NCBI GenBank assembly: GCA_964036295.1
Contig: OZ038462.1
Span: forward strand, 2,115,501-2,179,500
Source: Plumapathes pennacea
Taxonomy: Eukaryota; Cnidaria; Anthozoa; Antipatharia; Myriopathidae
Reading direction: 5' to 3'
DNA length: 64,000 nucleotides
Part shown: positions 23,340 to 32,624 of the stretch, one piece after another
How positions within the stretch are numbered: position 1 is the first letter of the stretch
Layout: every line of letters starts with the position of its first letter
Position numbers and translations under genes: made by a program
Notes under the pieces: generated by a model
What the model was told of the DNA's origin: nothing
The model's input: the letters and a program-made list of their open reading frames with translations, nothing else
Databases searched by the model: none

Positions 23340-26300
23340 ATGGCGGCGGTTCATGGTGCAAGGCCTTTTCGCGAGACATATGACATCAAAGAAGAACTGG
23401 GAAAGTAAGGAGAACTAGCTTTTAATTGTAGTGACCTGCACGTGTTTCATCTCCGCTGATTTTGTGTGAATTTATCCAGAGGAGCCTTCAGCATTGTACG
23501 CCGTTGTGTACACAAGGAGACAAAAGTTGAGTATGCCGCGAAAATTATCAACACGAAAAAGATGTCCTCTAGAGGTAAGCTGAAATGTGTCAATGTGTTC
23601 CACTTTTGCTAGTTGTATATCCAATATTAAAATTATACAATGTACAAATCAGTCGAGAGTAAACTTGGTGCATGGACTGCCGTGATCGAGAATATGGCGT
23701 CCAAATTTAGATTTCCTCGAGGATAAATATTCTCGACACATCTTTGGTGTTAGAGGAAGGCAGGGAAAGAACACTATTAATTTGTGTTCAGACACTGTTT
23801 CATGTGAGAGTCCTCACAAAAGCAAGCTTTTTAACACTCGACCCGACTCATGGACAAAGAAATTATGTTGAAACAGATGGTGTTTCGTCACAATGATTTC
23901 TTAGCTCTAGGGCTGCAATGGAAGTCCTGGTCTTAATGTTATTTTCTGTCATACTCAGATCTTCAAAAGCTGGAAAGAGAGGCAAGGATCTGCCGCCGGT
24001 TGAAACATGCGAACGTCGGTAAATATGAAGTTCCCACCCGTTGTGGTTTTTAAATTGTTTTTAATGCACCTTCGCTCTAGCAGCTTAAAAATTTATTCGA
24101 AATCAGGAATCTTGCTACAAAAGTTTGATATTTCCTCAGAAAGTAGCTGTGATTTTCAGCGGCTTCTCTGTTGTGTATTTTCTTAAATTTATAACCCACA
24201 AATTCAAAATCATTAATATTTGGCAAGTTTCTTCTGATTTTGTTTTAGATAATTTATATGGCGAAGATTTTATTATATTCCCTTGGGAGTTTCGTGACTT
24301 TCGCTTGTCGAACAGTGAAGTAGCGTAATAAATTTGACTTCGTATTTGTAACTTCGGCTAAAAAGTCTTACGTTACACTGTACAGCTGCAAATCCAGTGA
24401 TCTGCTCGGCGATTGAATGTAATATAATTTTAACGCCACATATGTCTGTGTGGTTACGAACATTTGTGAAAACACGAACATCAGTTGAAGAGACCATGGC
24501 TGTGCAGTACCATCTGTTCCGACCCATCTGATCGACCATACATCTTGAATTTTTAATCGGTTCGCTGTCATCGGGTGCTAATTGATTTCACAGTGTGCGC
24601 CCATGATCAGAAACGCAGTGAAATAGTAAATCCAGTCAGATGCATGCAAATGATTATTAAGTGTTGCCGAGGTCTTTTCTACTCGATTTGGCTCCGTATG
24701 AATAATGTAAACATCAGGAGACCTCTTAAAACAAAACAATATTTATTACATTAATTTATGATAAAGCCTGAAAGCACTATGCAGATCTAAGATGGGTACA
24801 AACTGTATAATTTTTTAGTTTCAATCTTTACTGGTGCAAATCATAAAACAGTACTTCCTATTATACCTCATCAGATCAGAGTACAGCTTATTTGCAATTT
24901 CAGTGCTGTTTTATGAATTCTCTTTTTTTATCTGGCTAATTTTTATGGAAAATAATACATGGGCGTACGGAATTATGAAGTTGATTTTTGCTCACTCGTG
25001 AGATATCGAGATGAACACGAGAAGATAAATTTCACATCTCGAAGTGTCCATGTAGAATTTTGGTCAGATACTGAGATTGTGTGATAACATGCAAGATCCA
25101 TTGCTTGGCTGATATCAACACACATAAAAATATTGTATTTGTGTCATAATCCAAATGGCTGCAATGGAACAGAAGAGCTAATTTGGATATCAGATGGGTT
25201 GATATATAAAGTGGAAGCATCAGGTGTTGACTGCCAGAATTATTGTCAAGCAATTATAAATGCTCTATGTAGGGGGCCAAAATATATTTCCATGGGGTCA
25301 TCCAGCTTTGAGTCACAACCAATATCAATAAATACAACAGAACCCCACTAACTTGAATTCCCAAGGGAAGTGCGAAATAGTTAAAGTTAGCAGGAGTTCA
25401 AGTTAGCTGATAGTAAATGACTGAAAGGAAAATCCAAGGGAAATGGGTTTGAGTTAGTTCTACTGTACTACTAACTGCAGCTTTCAAACTCTGAGTTGTA
25501 AAGAAATAATAACCCTTCATCTTGCAATGTCACATCACATCCCCTTTGAGAATATTTGTTGCATATCGAAATCAACAGAAACACTTAATTTGACTGAGGG
25601 GAGGGGGACCAATAATTGGTAACTTGTTTCAGGAGGTACTTCCTGAAACAAGTTTCCAATAATTATTGGTATGCTCACTACTGCAACTAATGTTTCAATA
25701 TTGAATGAAAATATAGTTGGTTGGTGTAACAGCTTTATTGGATGGCAGGAACATTTTAAATCCTCTGGGAAAGAAAAGCTATTGTTTTGGAAGTTTCATT
25801 GTTTGATCCAACATGGTCACCAAGTAAACCTCTATTGATTGTGCCCTTGATTGACAAACCCTTTGTTTATTTGTTTGTTACTTTACAGTCCGTCTGCATG
25901 AAAGTTTAGCTGAGGAAGGCTATCATTATTTGGTCTTCGATTTGTAAGTTAGTGAAGCTCACAGAATTAAACTTGCATTCATGTTTCTCTTTTACATTCT
26001 TCGTGCTTACATGTAAACTGACATTTTTGTTTTGACAGCTGTTGACCATGTATCTGTAAGCCAAATATTATTACTGTACTGTTTGTCCCAATGAGTTTTT
26101 GTTAAACATTTCTCACATATACCTCACTTTTCTAACAAAAAAAGGTATCTGTGATTGGTCCAGAAGAGGAAATCGAGGTCTCCAGATCAGACACTGAGGG
26201 GGGAGGGGTTGGGTTGCGTGCAGACGTCAGCTTGATGCATCTGAAAATTAGGCTAGCCCTGTACAAACTGCCAAATGATTATTTATATCCCTGACTAATA

Positions 26301-29300
26301 TAATTTCACATAATTGGGTACTTTACATTGTATGATGTTGTTCTAGGGTCACTGGGGGAGAACTCTTTGAAGATATCGTAGCAAGGGAATATTACAGTGA
26401 AGCTGATGCAAGGTATTTATATATTGTGATTATTCTGATTTTGGTTGTGTATTCCCTGACACACCAATCCAACATAACACAGTGGATTTGCATTACTGCC
26501 ACATTACACTTCCTTGACCTAATAATACATTCCAATCACATGTCGACCAAACTGACCAATTTCTGGAGAGACCACACTAATATTAAATTGTCTGATGATG
26601 TCACTGAACTCTGAAGATGATTACTTCTGCACAGGTGATCAAAATGTCAGTCACCAATAACAGTTTCTCTGAAGACTGTACTCTCACCCTAACCTGCAAA
26701 ACAGACAGATTTCACCTGCTGCTTTGCAAGGCTGAAAAATACTGTCTTGGAAACCGAGCTGACAGATGACTTCCATGATGTCATGGTAGCTGTGTCAAGA
26801 GTGACCAATCAGAAATCTTTCTTTGATCTTACTTCTTGATATTTGAAAGCTAAATTTCGATTGGACAAAACCTATGTTGTCATGGAAATGGTTTGTTGAC
26901 TCGGTTTCACAGATGGTATTTTTTGGCCTCGCAAAGCAACAGGCAGGAAATTCGTCCATTTTTTGCAGGCTGGGTGCAAATAATTTTTCTGATAATAATT
27001 TTGTTGTGTTTTTATTTTCAACCAGTCACTGCATTCAGCAAATCTTGGAAAGTGTTCAACATTGTCACCATAACAATGTTGTTCACAGGGACTTGAAGGT
27101 GAGAACAGCTTAATTAGTTTGTTTGGACCAATCCAAAATTGTAGCTATTTTACAAACTCAAAGAAGTTACACTATTACTTTCAACAGTCATCCATAAATG
27201 GCTACAAAAGTATCTCATATAGTGTAATTTATCCAACTATTCGTTTTTCATTGATGCCCAGGTTGGTGATTTTGAGCACAACATTGCATATTTTGTTTTC
27301 GTAGCCTGAAAATCTCTTGTTGGCCAGCAAAGAGAAGGGTGCAGCAGTGAAACTGGCTGACTTTGGTCTTGCTATTGAAACTGATGGGGACAAAATGGGC
27401 TGGTATGGTAAGTAGAGACCAGCGTTTGCACACGTGCATTATGTACAGTGTAGTTTCTATTAGGGCCCTAACAATCACTTACCAGCCAGTCAGTGGCTAT
27501 TCTGCAGGGTGCGTTAAACACTTTGTTTACTAAATGGCACTTTAATGCAGGTCATGGCAATTCATGTTTCCACGGTGATGAACCCCAACAAGTGTACAGG
27601 ACCCAGGATGCAGCTGTGCTCTCCCCAGTACAATGTTCTGTTCACACCCTGTCAAATAACTTCTGAAAATGTGCACACCCTCATGCAATATTACAAGACA
27701 TTCTTTCTCTTGAGCTTGTACAGCAGAGTCATACTGACAGACACTAAGCCATTACCGATTTCCTAAATAGTAAATGCACTTAATAGTTGTGATGAGTGCT
27801 TTAATCTGTTTCTGTTGCTCAGGGTTTGCTGGAACACCTGGCTACTTGTCTCCTGAAGTGTTAAAGAAGGATCCTTATGGCAGAGCTGTTGACCTGTGGG
27901 CATGTGGTAAGTTAATGCAGATTATTCCAACCATTTGAGAAGAAAATGTATGAGTAATGTAGTGATAATATTGATCATTCCTGTGCAAGTTGCAACTTTT
28001 CCATATTGCACGTGATGATTGCACTGATGAGAGACTGAAAGAGGAAATATTGAAGATGATTACTTTTGGGAGTGAAAGAATACATGTATGGTAATTTGGT
28101 AACACCACACCGCATGTAAAACCTTTTTTTCTTCTAAATATAAGATAAATTCTGATTAATGGAAATATTTTAGTTTCATACAAAACTTCAGAGTGCAGAA
28201 TTTAGCTAATTTGTATTACAAAAGTTGCATGATTATAGGGGACATTTCAAATGTGCTGCTGTCAGTTGGAGCAGACTGCTTATGGTATTTACCTTGTGTT
28301 AGGTGTCATATTGTACATTTTATTGGTGGGTTATCCTCCATTCTGGGATGAAGATCAGCACAAGCTTTACCAACAGATCAAGTCTGGTGCTTTTGATGTA
28401 AGTAATGAATATTGAATGCCATATCCAAGTCCTGGGCCCGGTTGCGTAGAACGCTAACGCCCTAGCCTGCGTGTTCACGGGCGATGTCGCCCGTAAATAC
28501 TGTTCAACCACATCGAATGAGACCGCCAGCTACGCAGGCTAATATAAGGCCCTGGAGAGTGAGCTTGAGTTCCCTGAATTCGGCCTACCACAAGTTGTGT
28601 TAACTACTAGCCCATATGGCTCGTGAGGACCAAGAACAATGTTCGAGCCCTTGCTCATTGCATCATATTTTCGTTGTATTTTTATATTTTCTTGTTCTTC
28701 CTTAGTATCCCTCCCCTGAATGGGACACAGTTACAGATGAAGCTAAGGTGATGTGTTGCTGTCCTGTCCTGTGTTGTTTCTATGCACAAAAAAGCATTTT
28801 TCCCTCAGTATCTGAGACATCGGAAAGCTAGTAATTGGGATAACTAGTTTTGCTCCGATGAAGGGCTCGAAGCGCCAGCTCAAAAATCTTAACGGCGTCC
28901 AGTTATCATACATAAACCCCTAGTCTGTGCATCATACGTTTGTTTCCCCACGCCGACGAATCAAACACTATTTCTCCCAAGTAATAACTTTGATGTCACA
29001 GTACAATAACTTCATGGTTGTGAGAAGAACACTTTTTCAACAAGTTATAAGCCAAAGGATACTGGTGGCGTTTGGAGAAGAACCCAATTAAATAGAAGTG
29101 CGGGCATTAACCGCGCACGTGTGCCTTGTACTTGGTTGCGTGAGCAGATCACACGGGGGTTTCCTTTTGTTCCTGATTCAAGAATGATGCCAATCCAAAA
29201 GCGTAGCAAACACAAACCCGCTCTATCACCGGGATTTCACGTGCTTCTGTTGATGCTGTTTAGTTAACTGCTGTCCCGTAACGTTTGTAGGAGTTGATTA

Positions 29301-32300
29301 ACAAGATGCTGACAGTGGATCAGAGCAAAAGGATCACAGCAGCTAATGCGCTCGTGCACCCGTGGATTGTGGTAAAGTTTTAAATGTTTTTACTCCAAAG
29401 TGAAAATCACAGCAGATCTAAAGTACCTGTAAGTTTGAGTAAGATAATGCGGTGTTACGTTCGCGTACACGTTTGAAACGTCGGGGGTTTTTTTTGTTTT
29501 GTTTGTTTGTTTGTTTGTTTTTTTTGCCTGTTTGTTTGCGGTCGATTTAGCTCCGTTGTTAATCGATTTATTTCCGTTGTTAATTCTAGAATCGGGAACG
29601 TGTTGCCTCTAAAGTCCATCGCCAAGAGACACTTGATGGATTAAAGAAATTCAACGCCCGAAGGAAACTGAAGGTTTGTGCTTTAGACGACTAAGAGATC
29701 GCCCGGACACTGAGTTTCTGTCAAGCCTCGTTTTCCTTGTGCACAGCTGATGTTATAAAAAATGCATCGACCTAACTTCTAGTTGAGTATCGAGTCCTAG
29801 TATTGAGCCGGTTTCTGCCTTGAATTTTTGCGAACGTTAGACTGAACTACAAACTCTGCTTGAATCTTGTGCAATGACCGCTGACTCAAAAATAAGCTGG
29901 GCGCACGTGCGTACGCACACTCACTGATTTGTAAACGCGGAGAATTCTGTTTGTGTTTTACCAGGGTGCTATCCTGACCACACTCTTGGCTACAAGTCAT
30001 AGCTGGTCTTCAGGTATACAACACTGTGACCTTATGTTTGTTGTCTTTTCCAGGGCGCCATCTTAACGACCATTGTGGCCCGTAGGTTTTCAGCTAACTC
30101 AGGTATAAAATTAAATCATAAACGATAAATATTTGTACATAATAGTATAAACCACAACACAACTATGCTACGATAGCCACAATAATCATCGTCTATCAAG
30201 AAAAGGCATCAGGCCGTTTATGACATTTGTTTGCACATAACTGTTAAATCATGCACAATCTCATTTACGGACGGTAATAATTATAAATCATCTAACACAC
30301 GTGACCAAATCAATTGACAAATAACACGGCACTTTCGAGTTGACTGTTTTTTATTTAATAAACCAAGTTGTCTGTCTTTCTCTCTAGCAGCCTCATATCT
30401 GCCTAACTAAACCTCTGGGAGGTTTTGAATATAAGTCCGTCATGAAGTACTGAACTAATTGTTATAATTGCGTAGAAATGTAAAGAGATAACCGATGAAC
30501 TATTTAAACCCCAAAACGTTGCTACCAGTTTACTCCAACATTTGAAAAGATCTGAACGCTGCTGATTATATCCATAACTGCACTAAATATTATAATACGT
30601 GAAAAAACTTCCTGTCATCTAACTCGGCTGAAGTATACTGTCTTGTACTGTGACTCACTGTTAAACCTTTCGGACTACTGTTACGTAAATGTAATATTTC
30701 TCAATATAAATACCGTATACTGGATACTAATGTGAAGTCTTGTGCAAGTCGCTCTAAATGTCCAGGTTTAAGTATATTGCTTTTGTATTTCATAGTTCGT
30801 CCCCTCACAGTGGGCAGAAAAAAGGTGAGGTTTGCTATCCGGCGTTGTTGCTTTGAAGCTTTGAATTATCTGAATCAGTCTCTTCTCGTCATTGTATTGG
30901 TTTGGTGTTGCCGTTGTCTTCGGAAATAACGTATTAAGTGATGCTATTGTCCACAGGGTTCTGAGGAAGAGTTAATGACTCATTCGGAAGATGAAAACGA
31001 AAACGTAGACATTTCTGCTAAAGGTTTGTTACTTAAGTTTACCCACAATTCATTCGCTTTTAATAGGCCATTTTCTCAAGGCAACGTGCGCATCTGAACT
31101 TTACAACGTTCACGCATGAGTGCTCGCTAAACAATTCTCATATCGAAGGTTGTGACCCGTCAAGCTTGGATGCGCGCGCAACCTTGAGATAATGGTCTAT
31201 TGACTCGTGATTTTGTATTTGTCGACAGCGCGCGAGCAGGAGATCATTCGTCTGACACAGAAACTTATCACCAGCATAACCGCAGGAGACTTTGAAACGT
31301 ACAGGTCAGTACACTGCACGTGTTGCTTAGTAACAGGTCACGTGATGTGTGTTGCTTAGTAACAGGTCACGTGATGTATGTTGCTTGATCTCTTCCTCAG
31401 TAAGTTGGTGGACACTCGTCTGACCGCGTTTGAGCCGGAGGCGAGAGGGAACCTCGTGGAGGGGCTTGAGTTCCACAAGTTTTATTTCGATAATCGTGAG
31501 TCTGTTGTACTTTTAATTCATCGTCGCCGCTTTTCTCTCGTCCGTTTCGTTAGATCTTGTTCTTCAGCTGTTTTGTCTGTCCTGGCACGTCTCCTGTTTT
31601 TCCAGCTTCCCATTCTTTGGTTCCTTTACTCGCGTATTTGTTTGTTTGTTTGTTTTGCCATTCTTTTCGTGTGGTACAGTTTTTCCCCGTCCTTCTCTTT
31701 TCTTTTTTCACCCGGTTACGTTTGTTTCCCTTCCATTTTCTTTTTGTAATTATCAGTACCACCATCCTATCTCTGTCTTTTTATCTTTTTATCTTTTTAT
31801 CTTTTTATCTTTCTATCTTCCTTTTCTTGTGGTACCGTGTCCTTCTGTACATTTTGTTTGTGTGATTTGTCGCTGTTCGTTGAGTCCCATCACTACCACC
31901 ATCTTATCTGTCTTTCCATCTTTCTTTTCTTGTGGTACCGTATCCTTCTTTACATTTTGTTTGTGTGATTTGTCGCTGTTCGTTGAGTCCCATCACTACC
32001 ACCATCTTATCTGTCTTTCCATCTTTCTTTTCTTGTGGTACCGTGTCCTTCTTTACATTTTGTTTGTGTATTTTGTTTCTTCAGTCTACAGTAAGAGAGC
32101 GACTCCCGTCAGCACTACCATCTTATCTCCTCACGTGCACATGCTGGGCGAAGAGGCCGCTTGCATTTGTTACGTGAGACTCACTCAGTACCTCGACAGG
32201 TGAGAGCTATTGTGGCCATTTACCGCTCTGTCTGTTTGTTTACCCGTCTGTCTGTTTGTTTACCTGTTGTTTACCCGTCTGTCTCCTTGTTTACCTGTTT

Positions 32301-32624
32301 GTTTATCCATCTTGTTTACCTGTCTGTGTCTCTTTACCCATCACAAATTTACTTTGTTCTCAAGCTCTTTTCCTACCCAGGGAAAACAGCTTGGGAACAA
32401 GGGTGGGTGAGGGACTGGTAATGAGTTTAATCACACCAAAACTTGATTTAGTCAATATTTGATTTGGTCAATATTTATAAACCTTCAATTCACGTGCGAT
32501 CCTTAGCTCCAGTCTCCCGTGCACCAAGCAAAGCGAGGAGACCCGCATCTGGCACAGGAGAGAGGGCCGATGGGTAAACGTGCACTTCCATCGCTCCAAC
32601 ATGACGGCGTCTACAGGAAGTTGA
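23340..32624 (+). CDS. CAMK2: Calcium/calmodulin-dependent protein kinase II
   Basis: Multimeric Ser/Thr kinase activated by Ca2+/calmodulin. Exons: 23340-23404, 23480-23574, 23959-24018, 25889-25943, 26347-26412, 27026-27098, 27305-27407, 27823-27906, 28303-28397, 28706-28747, 29291-29371, 29590-29673, then either 29965-30013 or 30054-30102, then 30811-30824, 30957-31023, 31229-31304, 31401-31495, 32085-32199, 32507-32624. Every junction is in phase: 1437 nt, 478 aa. Kinase domain: GKGAFS at 21-26, Lys43, HRDLKPEN around Asp136, DFG at 157-159. Autophosphorylation Thr287 lies in HRQETLD, followed by the calmodulin helix FNARRKLK and Thr306/Thr307. A short acidic linker leads to the hub domain (about 345-478). 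The oxidation-sensitive Met-Met before HRQET in vertebrates is Lys-Val here. The 14-nt exon gives a VGRKK linker. Confidence 0.97.
26693..26969. mobile_element. MITE family 3, copy in CaMKII intron 5
   Basis: Inverted arms CCTGCAAAA..TGCTTTGCAAGGC and GCCTCGCAAAGCAACAGGCAGG..TTGCAGG. The same arms occur in erlin intron 11 (52830-53072). Confidence 0.7.
28463..28541. mobile_element. Short inverted-repeat element in CaMKII intron 9
   Basis: Ends TAGCCTGCGT and ACGCAGGCTA are inverted copies 79 bp apart, with an inner GGGCGA/TCGCCC stem. Confidence 0.5.
29965..30013 (+). CDS. CAMK2: CaMKII alternative exon 13a (calmodulin-binding helix)
   Basis: 49-nt exon with acceptor TTTTACCAG and donor GTATAC. 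It reads [16 protein letters not shown], the C-terminal half of the calmodulin-binding/autoinhibitory segment, including the Thr306/Thr307 pair. Same length and phase as exon 13b. Confidence 0.88.
30054..30102 (+). CDS. CAMK2: CaMKII alternative exon 13b (calmodulin-binding helix)
   Basis: 49-nt exon with acceptor TCTTTTCCAG and donor GTATAA, starting 40 nt after 13a. It reads [16 protein letters not shown]: the GAILTT core is the same as in 13a but the following residues differ, with Arg-Arg replacing Thr-Ser. 24 of 49 bases match 13a by hand count. Confidence 0.88.
31062..31201. mobile_element. MITE in CaMKII intron 15
   Basis: 140-bp element with ends AATAGGCCATTTTCTCAAGG and CCTTGAGATAATGGTCTATT, imperfect inverted repeats. 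The end motif AATAGGCCATTTC is also seen near 6200 and 17145. Confidence 0.65.
31320..31384 (+). repeat. 32-bp direct duplication in CaMKII intron 16
   Basis: TGTTGCTTAGTAACAGGTCA..GATGT block occurs twice back to back, next to the exon 17 acceptor. Confidence 0.7.
31783..32075 (+). repeat. Tandem repeats in CaMKII intron 17
   Basis: A short (TCTTTTTA)n tract at 31783-31815 leads into a 102-bp unit repeated about 2.5 times (TGTCGCTGTT at 31869 and 31971). 102 is a multiple of 3, which keeps a long false reading frame open. Confidence 0.85.
32220..32340 (+). repeat. CTGTCTGTTTGTTTACC repeat in CaMKII intron 18
   Basis: Imperfect repeats of a 16-17-bp unit, about six copies. Confidence 0.75.

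Follow-up and report, generated by a model that had tools for sequence, protein, structure and literature searches.

The calmodulin-binding helix of CaMKII in Plumapathes pennacea is encoded in part by two adjacent 49-nt exons, 13a and 13b, and only transcript models carrying exactly one of them keep an open reading frame to the end. The explanation that we consider probable is that exon 13 was duplicated in tandem long ago, that the copies are spliced in singly so that the end of the helix is swapped, and that the resulting isoforms should differ in their grip on calmodulin. The usual diversity of CaMKII comes from linker variants, and to our knowledge the calmodulin-helix segment is thought to be identical in all splice forms. 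If our explanation is true, the natural pair offers a ready-made experiment on the residues that determine how calmodulin is gripped and trapped and which partners are chosen, in an animal that is probably outside the bilaterians.

The CaMKII gene in the window

The window, i.e., the whole stretch of 64,000 nt that was analysed, corresponds to G000:C1:2115501-2179500 in a 290-Mb genome of 24 contigs. We have located the CaMKII exons with a human CAMK2A query and have placed their borders by AG/GT. The features discussed below are, in window positions:

23340..32624, plus strand: CaMKII gene, coding span from ATG to stop, a spliced model with a continuous frame
29590..29673, plus strand: exon 12, 28 residues that include Thr287 and the basic beginning of the calmodulin helix, AG/GT borders
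29965..30013, plus strand: exon 13a, 16 residues in 49 nt, phases 0/1 (in/out), AG/GT borders
30014..30053, plus strand: 40-nt spacer with the polypyrimidine tract of 13b, shorter than all 66 sampled introns
30054..30102, plus strand: exon 13b, 16 residues in 49 nt, phases 0/1 (in/out), AG/GT borders
30796..30824, plus strand: exon 14, 29 nt, peptide (V)RPLTVGRKK, keeps the frame after 13a or 13b
30957..31023, plus strand: exon 15, acidic linker, 22 residues, AG/GT borders
31229..32624, plus strand: exons 16-19, hub (association) domain, PF08332, best match 5ig4

Joined with one exon 13 copy each, the transcript models have 19 coding exons and encode 483 aa. They contain a CaMK-type kinase domain (Pfam PF00069, E 4.3e-75, residues 14-272) and a C-terminal hub domain (Pfam PF08332, E 1e-51, residues 351-477), and the best solved match is CaMKII alpha (6w4o, E 1.3e-223, with the 13b form without exon 1 as the query). 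T287 (in HRQET), T306 and T307, computed for the 13a form, stand at the positions of vertebrate beta, gamma and delta, and the 13b form is equally long and shares the GAILTT. With kinase, hub, Thr287 and Thr306/Thr307 all found, the window gene is, by its sequence, a complete CaMKII. The best match of the hub is Nematostella CaMKII-A (5ig4, 203 bits), followed by CaMKII-B (200 bits) and human gamma (197 bits), and these scores, only slightly apart, would fit a cnidarian. A search for GFP genes as a sign of a cnidarian gave no match, which does not prove that such genes are absent.

Exon 14 is needed for the frame, as leaving it out causes a frame shift and an early stop; its peptide is, by eye, akin to the LTKKK found at the equivalent place of a second CaMKII gene described below. 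Further downstream, two copies of a short SPITTTILS stretch (31883-31909 and 31986-32012) lie in the intron preceding exon 18 and resemble the exon 18 peptide, though these two 9-residue matches (E 0.98) may be due to chance.

Layout and splice sites of the exon pair

An earlier sequence-only reading had described two 49-nt exons, each with its own acceptor and donor, in the same phase, both starting with GAILTT and separated by a gap of 40 nt, and we have confirmed the coordinates, borders and phases. Adjacent, homologous and in the same phase, 13a and 13b have the layout of tandem-duplicated exons; they are identical at 9 of 16 residues and at 24 of 49 nt. No other 49-nt AG...GT segment in the interval from exon 12 to exon 14 (29674-30795) is open in phase 0.

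The splice sites were scored by a leave-one-out procedure against the gene's own sites, where 13a and 13b raise each other's score since each belongs to the reference set of the other. The acceptors score 10.4 bits for 13a (third of 19) and 13.5 bits for 13b (first of 19), while the two donors are rather weak (5.0 and 5.15 bits, respectively; fourth and fifth lowest of 18). TGTGAC at 30025 in the spacer is a possible branch site. No Rbfox-type TGCATG is present in 29674-30795.

A choice between the copies forced by the frame

In the spliced models, the frame stays open to the end when exactly one of 13a and 13b is included. The claim that both exons together would shift the frame has been borne out, as 13a plus 13b leads to a stop at codon 328; the model with neither copy stops at codon 317, ahead of the hub, and retention of the spacer brings a stop as well. 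Inclusion of both copies or of neither breaks the frame.

The sequence-only reading had further held that the gap is too short for normal splicing. Its length is indeed below that of all 66 introns sampled, i.e., the 18 introns on the 13a path, which range from 75 to 1870 nt, and 48 estimated introns of myosin genes, the smallest of which is about 77 nt; none of the 66 is under 75 nt. The myosin introns were estimated from pairs of myosin-head matches adjacent in the profile, with match ends as inexact borders and some weak rows (E up to 7); pairs separated by wider gaps in the profile were excluded. This control took 100 of 101 myosin-head rows, and the absent one (C1:21667170-21667403) would fail the adjacency filter by its profile range. 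Introns near 40 nt are functional in some animals. From the sampled intron lengths we infer that distance would block the joining of 13a to 13b.

These stops bear on another reading, in which the pair serves to regulate dose or truncation, with transcripts that lack the hub or decay as its intended products. Both outcomes, the stop at codon 328 with both copies and that at codon 317 with neither, do come before the hub and speak in its favour. We nevertheless regard it as very improbable, since the joining of 13a to 13b requires an intron of 40 nt, below all those sampled, and skipping alone does not call for a second copy whose own peptide is conserved.

For the single splicing of either copy, the explanation that we prefer, the steps would be as follows. 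After an old tandem duplication of exon 13, the splicing machinery would be unable to join 13a to 13b, the donor and the branch site being too close, and transcripts with both copies or with neither would be lost. Either choice would preserve the Thr306/Thr307 module as well as Thr287 and autoinhibition and would swap positions 308-317, giving two isoforms that differ in calmodulin grip or release and in how the Ser314/315 position is controlled. In alpha-tropomyosin, exons 2 and 3 exclude each other because the donor lies too near the following branch site; that branch site is far upstream of its exon, whereas the whole CaMKII spacer measures only 40 nt.

Chance, age and constraint

We have searched the 290-Mb genome for AG followed by GAILTT and have found three matches, all in CaMKII genes: one belongs to the second CaMKII gene and the other two, 89 nt apart, to 13a and 13b. 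The reversed control pattern has five genome matches. Single matches of this kind are expected by chance, but an in-phase pair 89 nt apart at the correct place of CaMKII is not. When one 16-mer is compared with the window by tblastn, the other copy appears with an E value of 0.069 only, whereas chance matches of unrelated exon peptides go down to E 0.025. Because chance matches reach such a level, the evidence for the pair is its position, phase and codon pattern rather than the BLAST score. Among the 19 exon peptides tested (exon 1 omitted), only 13a and 13b match a neighbouring stretch over the full length, which is in each case the other copy. At the DNA level, the exon pair has one match in the assembly, namely itself.

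Codons 1-6 (GAILTT) show six synonymous and no amino-acid differences between 13a and 13b (pS about 1, pN 0). Six random changes leave this peptide intact in 0.0115% of 200,000 trials, under a simple null that ignores mutation bias. For the remaining ten codons pN is 0.60, which agrees with the earlier statement that the residues past the Thr pair differ sharply between the copies, and which is high enough to be compatible with loose constraint on the tails. Compared with the second CaMKII gene, the two copies are identical at 23/49 and 22/49 nt, against 24/49 between themselves; their mutual distance equals that to the paralogue, and therefore the duplication should be old. Overall, the pair looks old, with both copies apparently coding. 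Over 39 nt the copies match at 77% (E 0.003) in a block that takes in acceptor-tract sequence, and this tract looks like a part of the duplication, although pyrimidine-rich tracts are alike by nature.

Conservation of GAILTT, which any CaMKII copy should display, is no proof on its own that both are used. One may suppose that only one copy is used and that the old duplication has left the second as an exon in decay or of very rare use, as the strong divergence of the tails would allow. This we consider improbable, though less so than a truncation switch, since, although synonymous change is saturated, both copies retain GAILTT, an open frame, their length and phase, and AG/GT, and a functionless copy is expected to lose such features over that time.

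What the choice changes in the protein

The segment with Thr306/Thr307 sets calmodulin affinity and inhibitory autophosphorylation. The exon choice leaves these two residues fixed together with I304 and L305, all of them within GAILTT, and swaps positions 308-317, i.e., the C-terminal half of the calmodulin helix. In this numbering the tails are aligned without gaps, and the alignment is ambiguous by one residue. The tail of 13a is neutral and contains Trp, with Leu at the usual calmodulin anchor position, that of Leu308; 13b has Val there and two Arg. RRFS, a basophilic phosphorylation-type motif, is present in 13b and absent in 13a. Relative to the human F-S, the F-S of 13b comes one place earlier and the W-S of 13a one place later. 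The net K/R charge from FNARRKLK on is +4 for 13a and +6 for 13b, compared with +5 for both the human protein and the paralogue.

In CaMKII-delta, residues 296-316 are reported to contact calmodulin, and anchoring by I304/L305 lets T307 reach the substrate site (PMC2910593). The swap, as had been claimed, falls within the calmodulin-contact region (positions 308-317 against contacts 296-316; PMC2910593), and exon choice is likely, judging from these positions, to affect calmodulin grip or release.

Partners other than calmodulin may also be the target of the swap, since 308-317 holds the Ser314/315 site and the Phe that binds alpha-actinin-2. A reading built on this accepts a true either/or pair but sees its main purpose in other partners (alpha-actinin, hub docking, CASK) or in a phosphorylation site instead of calmodulin affinity. 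The phosphorylation motif R-x-x-S/R-R-x-S occurs in 13b alone, in line with this idea. Phe313 (alpha numbering) contacts alpha-actinin-2 (PMC10484527), and phosphorylation of Ser314 is reported both in vitro and in vivo, activity in vitro being unaffected (PMC9913510); both findings would also favour it. The same residues, however, are inside the calmodulin contact 296-316, and an effect on calmodulin is hard to avoid. We hold this purpose to be possible but rather doubtful; as it includes the same splicing part as our preferred explanation, the odds of the two overlap and do not sum to one.

More tentatively, single splicing of the two copies could amount to an ancient switch in the calmodulin helix that makes two kinds of CaMKII, with or without a basic phosphorylatable end (RRFS), in which case splicing would set calmodulin grip, binding of actin partners and perhaps control by cAMP kinase.

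Relatives in the same genome

The second CaMKII gene (L020) is located on the minus strand of the same contig (G000:C1, at about 94-98 kb within 92400-100400), about 2 Mb from the first. It is matched at few places only, and hence most of its introns are gone. Unlike the window gene, it has a single version of the segment, GAILTTILATHNFSRHS, in one fused exon, and it carries HRQST instead of HRQET at the Thr287 site. Because this single-version paralogue has an ordinary tail, ILATHNFS, neither 13a nor 13b is, as far as the sequences tell, simply the ancestral form.

A further relative is a CASK-like gene (L017), presumably CASK itself as judged by eye. Here a border stands at the equivalent place, after FNARRKLK, and a single 40-nt exon, GAVLAAVASRKFP, has by eye the same borders and phases, and the exon unit should therefore be old.

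Other kinase sequences were noticed in the same assembly. At G000:C2 ~9809117-9819634 (L016) there are CaMK-like kinase pieces that perhaps belong to one exon-split gene, with an 18-residue segment noted past the kinase, and at G000:C3 ~14.0-15.9 Mb at least 29 kinase-domain matches are clustered, most of which fall in open frames some 260-310 residues long.

Comparison with known systems

The linker variants of vertebrate and insect CaMKII (CAMK2A/B/D/G; planthopper, PMC6627886) belong to the same family and arise by exon choice past the regulatory segment. They alter the linker or variable region, whereas in the Plumapathes pair the calmodulin helix itself changes. In the planthopper enzyme, Thr-287, Thr-306/307 and Ser-315 are described as well conserved (PMC6627886). 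Among CaMKII genes, human CAMK2D likewise has a tandem-duplicated one-or-other exon; there, the substitution apparently affects the part of the kinase domain close to the ATP site and not the calmodulin helix (PMC9741552). This kinase-domain substitution contradicts the sequence-only reading on one point, namely that vertebrate variants are confined to the linker. Exons 13a/13bc of C. elegans calcineurin A (tax-6) are also mutually exclusive and encode the regulatory region of a calmodulin-regulated enzyme, but tax-6 is a phosphatase and the choice alters the linker LR2, not the calmodulin-binding helix (PMC12503234).

Titles and abstract openings among the open-access matches listed mention no duplication of a calmodulin-helix exon of CaMKII, and PMC3261145 and PMC9013439 gave nothing relevant to it; such a case may still be described behind a subscription or in a database gene model. 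Tandem mutually exclusive exons are a known kind, and their place in the calmodulin helix is new as far as searched.

We have also looked for relatives of the gene in two contig collections, neither of which gave an animal CaMKII. Among viral contigs, one stretch fits the pattern and none is confirmed. Prokaryote genome contigs gave five loci out of 44 matching stretches, all five in planctomycete MAGs. One of these MAGs contains, at L025 832-1233, a stand-alone 133-aa protein that is closely similar to the hub of CaMKII, with 69% identity across 54 residues, and its gene adjoins, by eye, a dihydrofolate reductase-like gene. In three other planctomycete contigs (L026-L028), the hub portion is matched at 58-66%.
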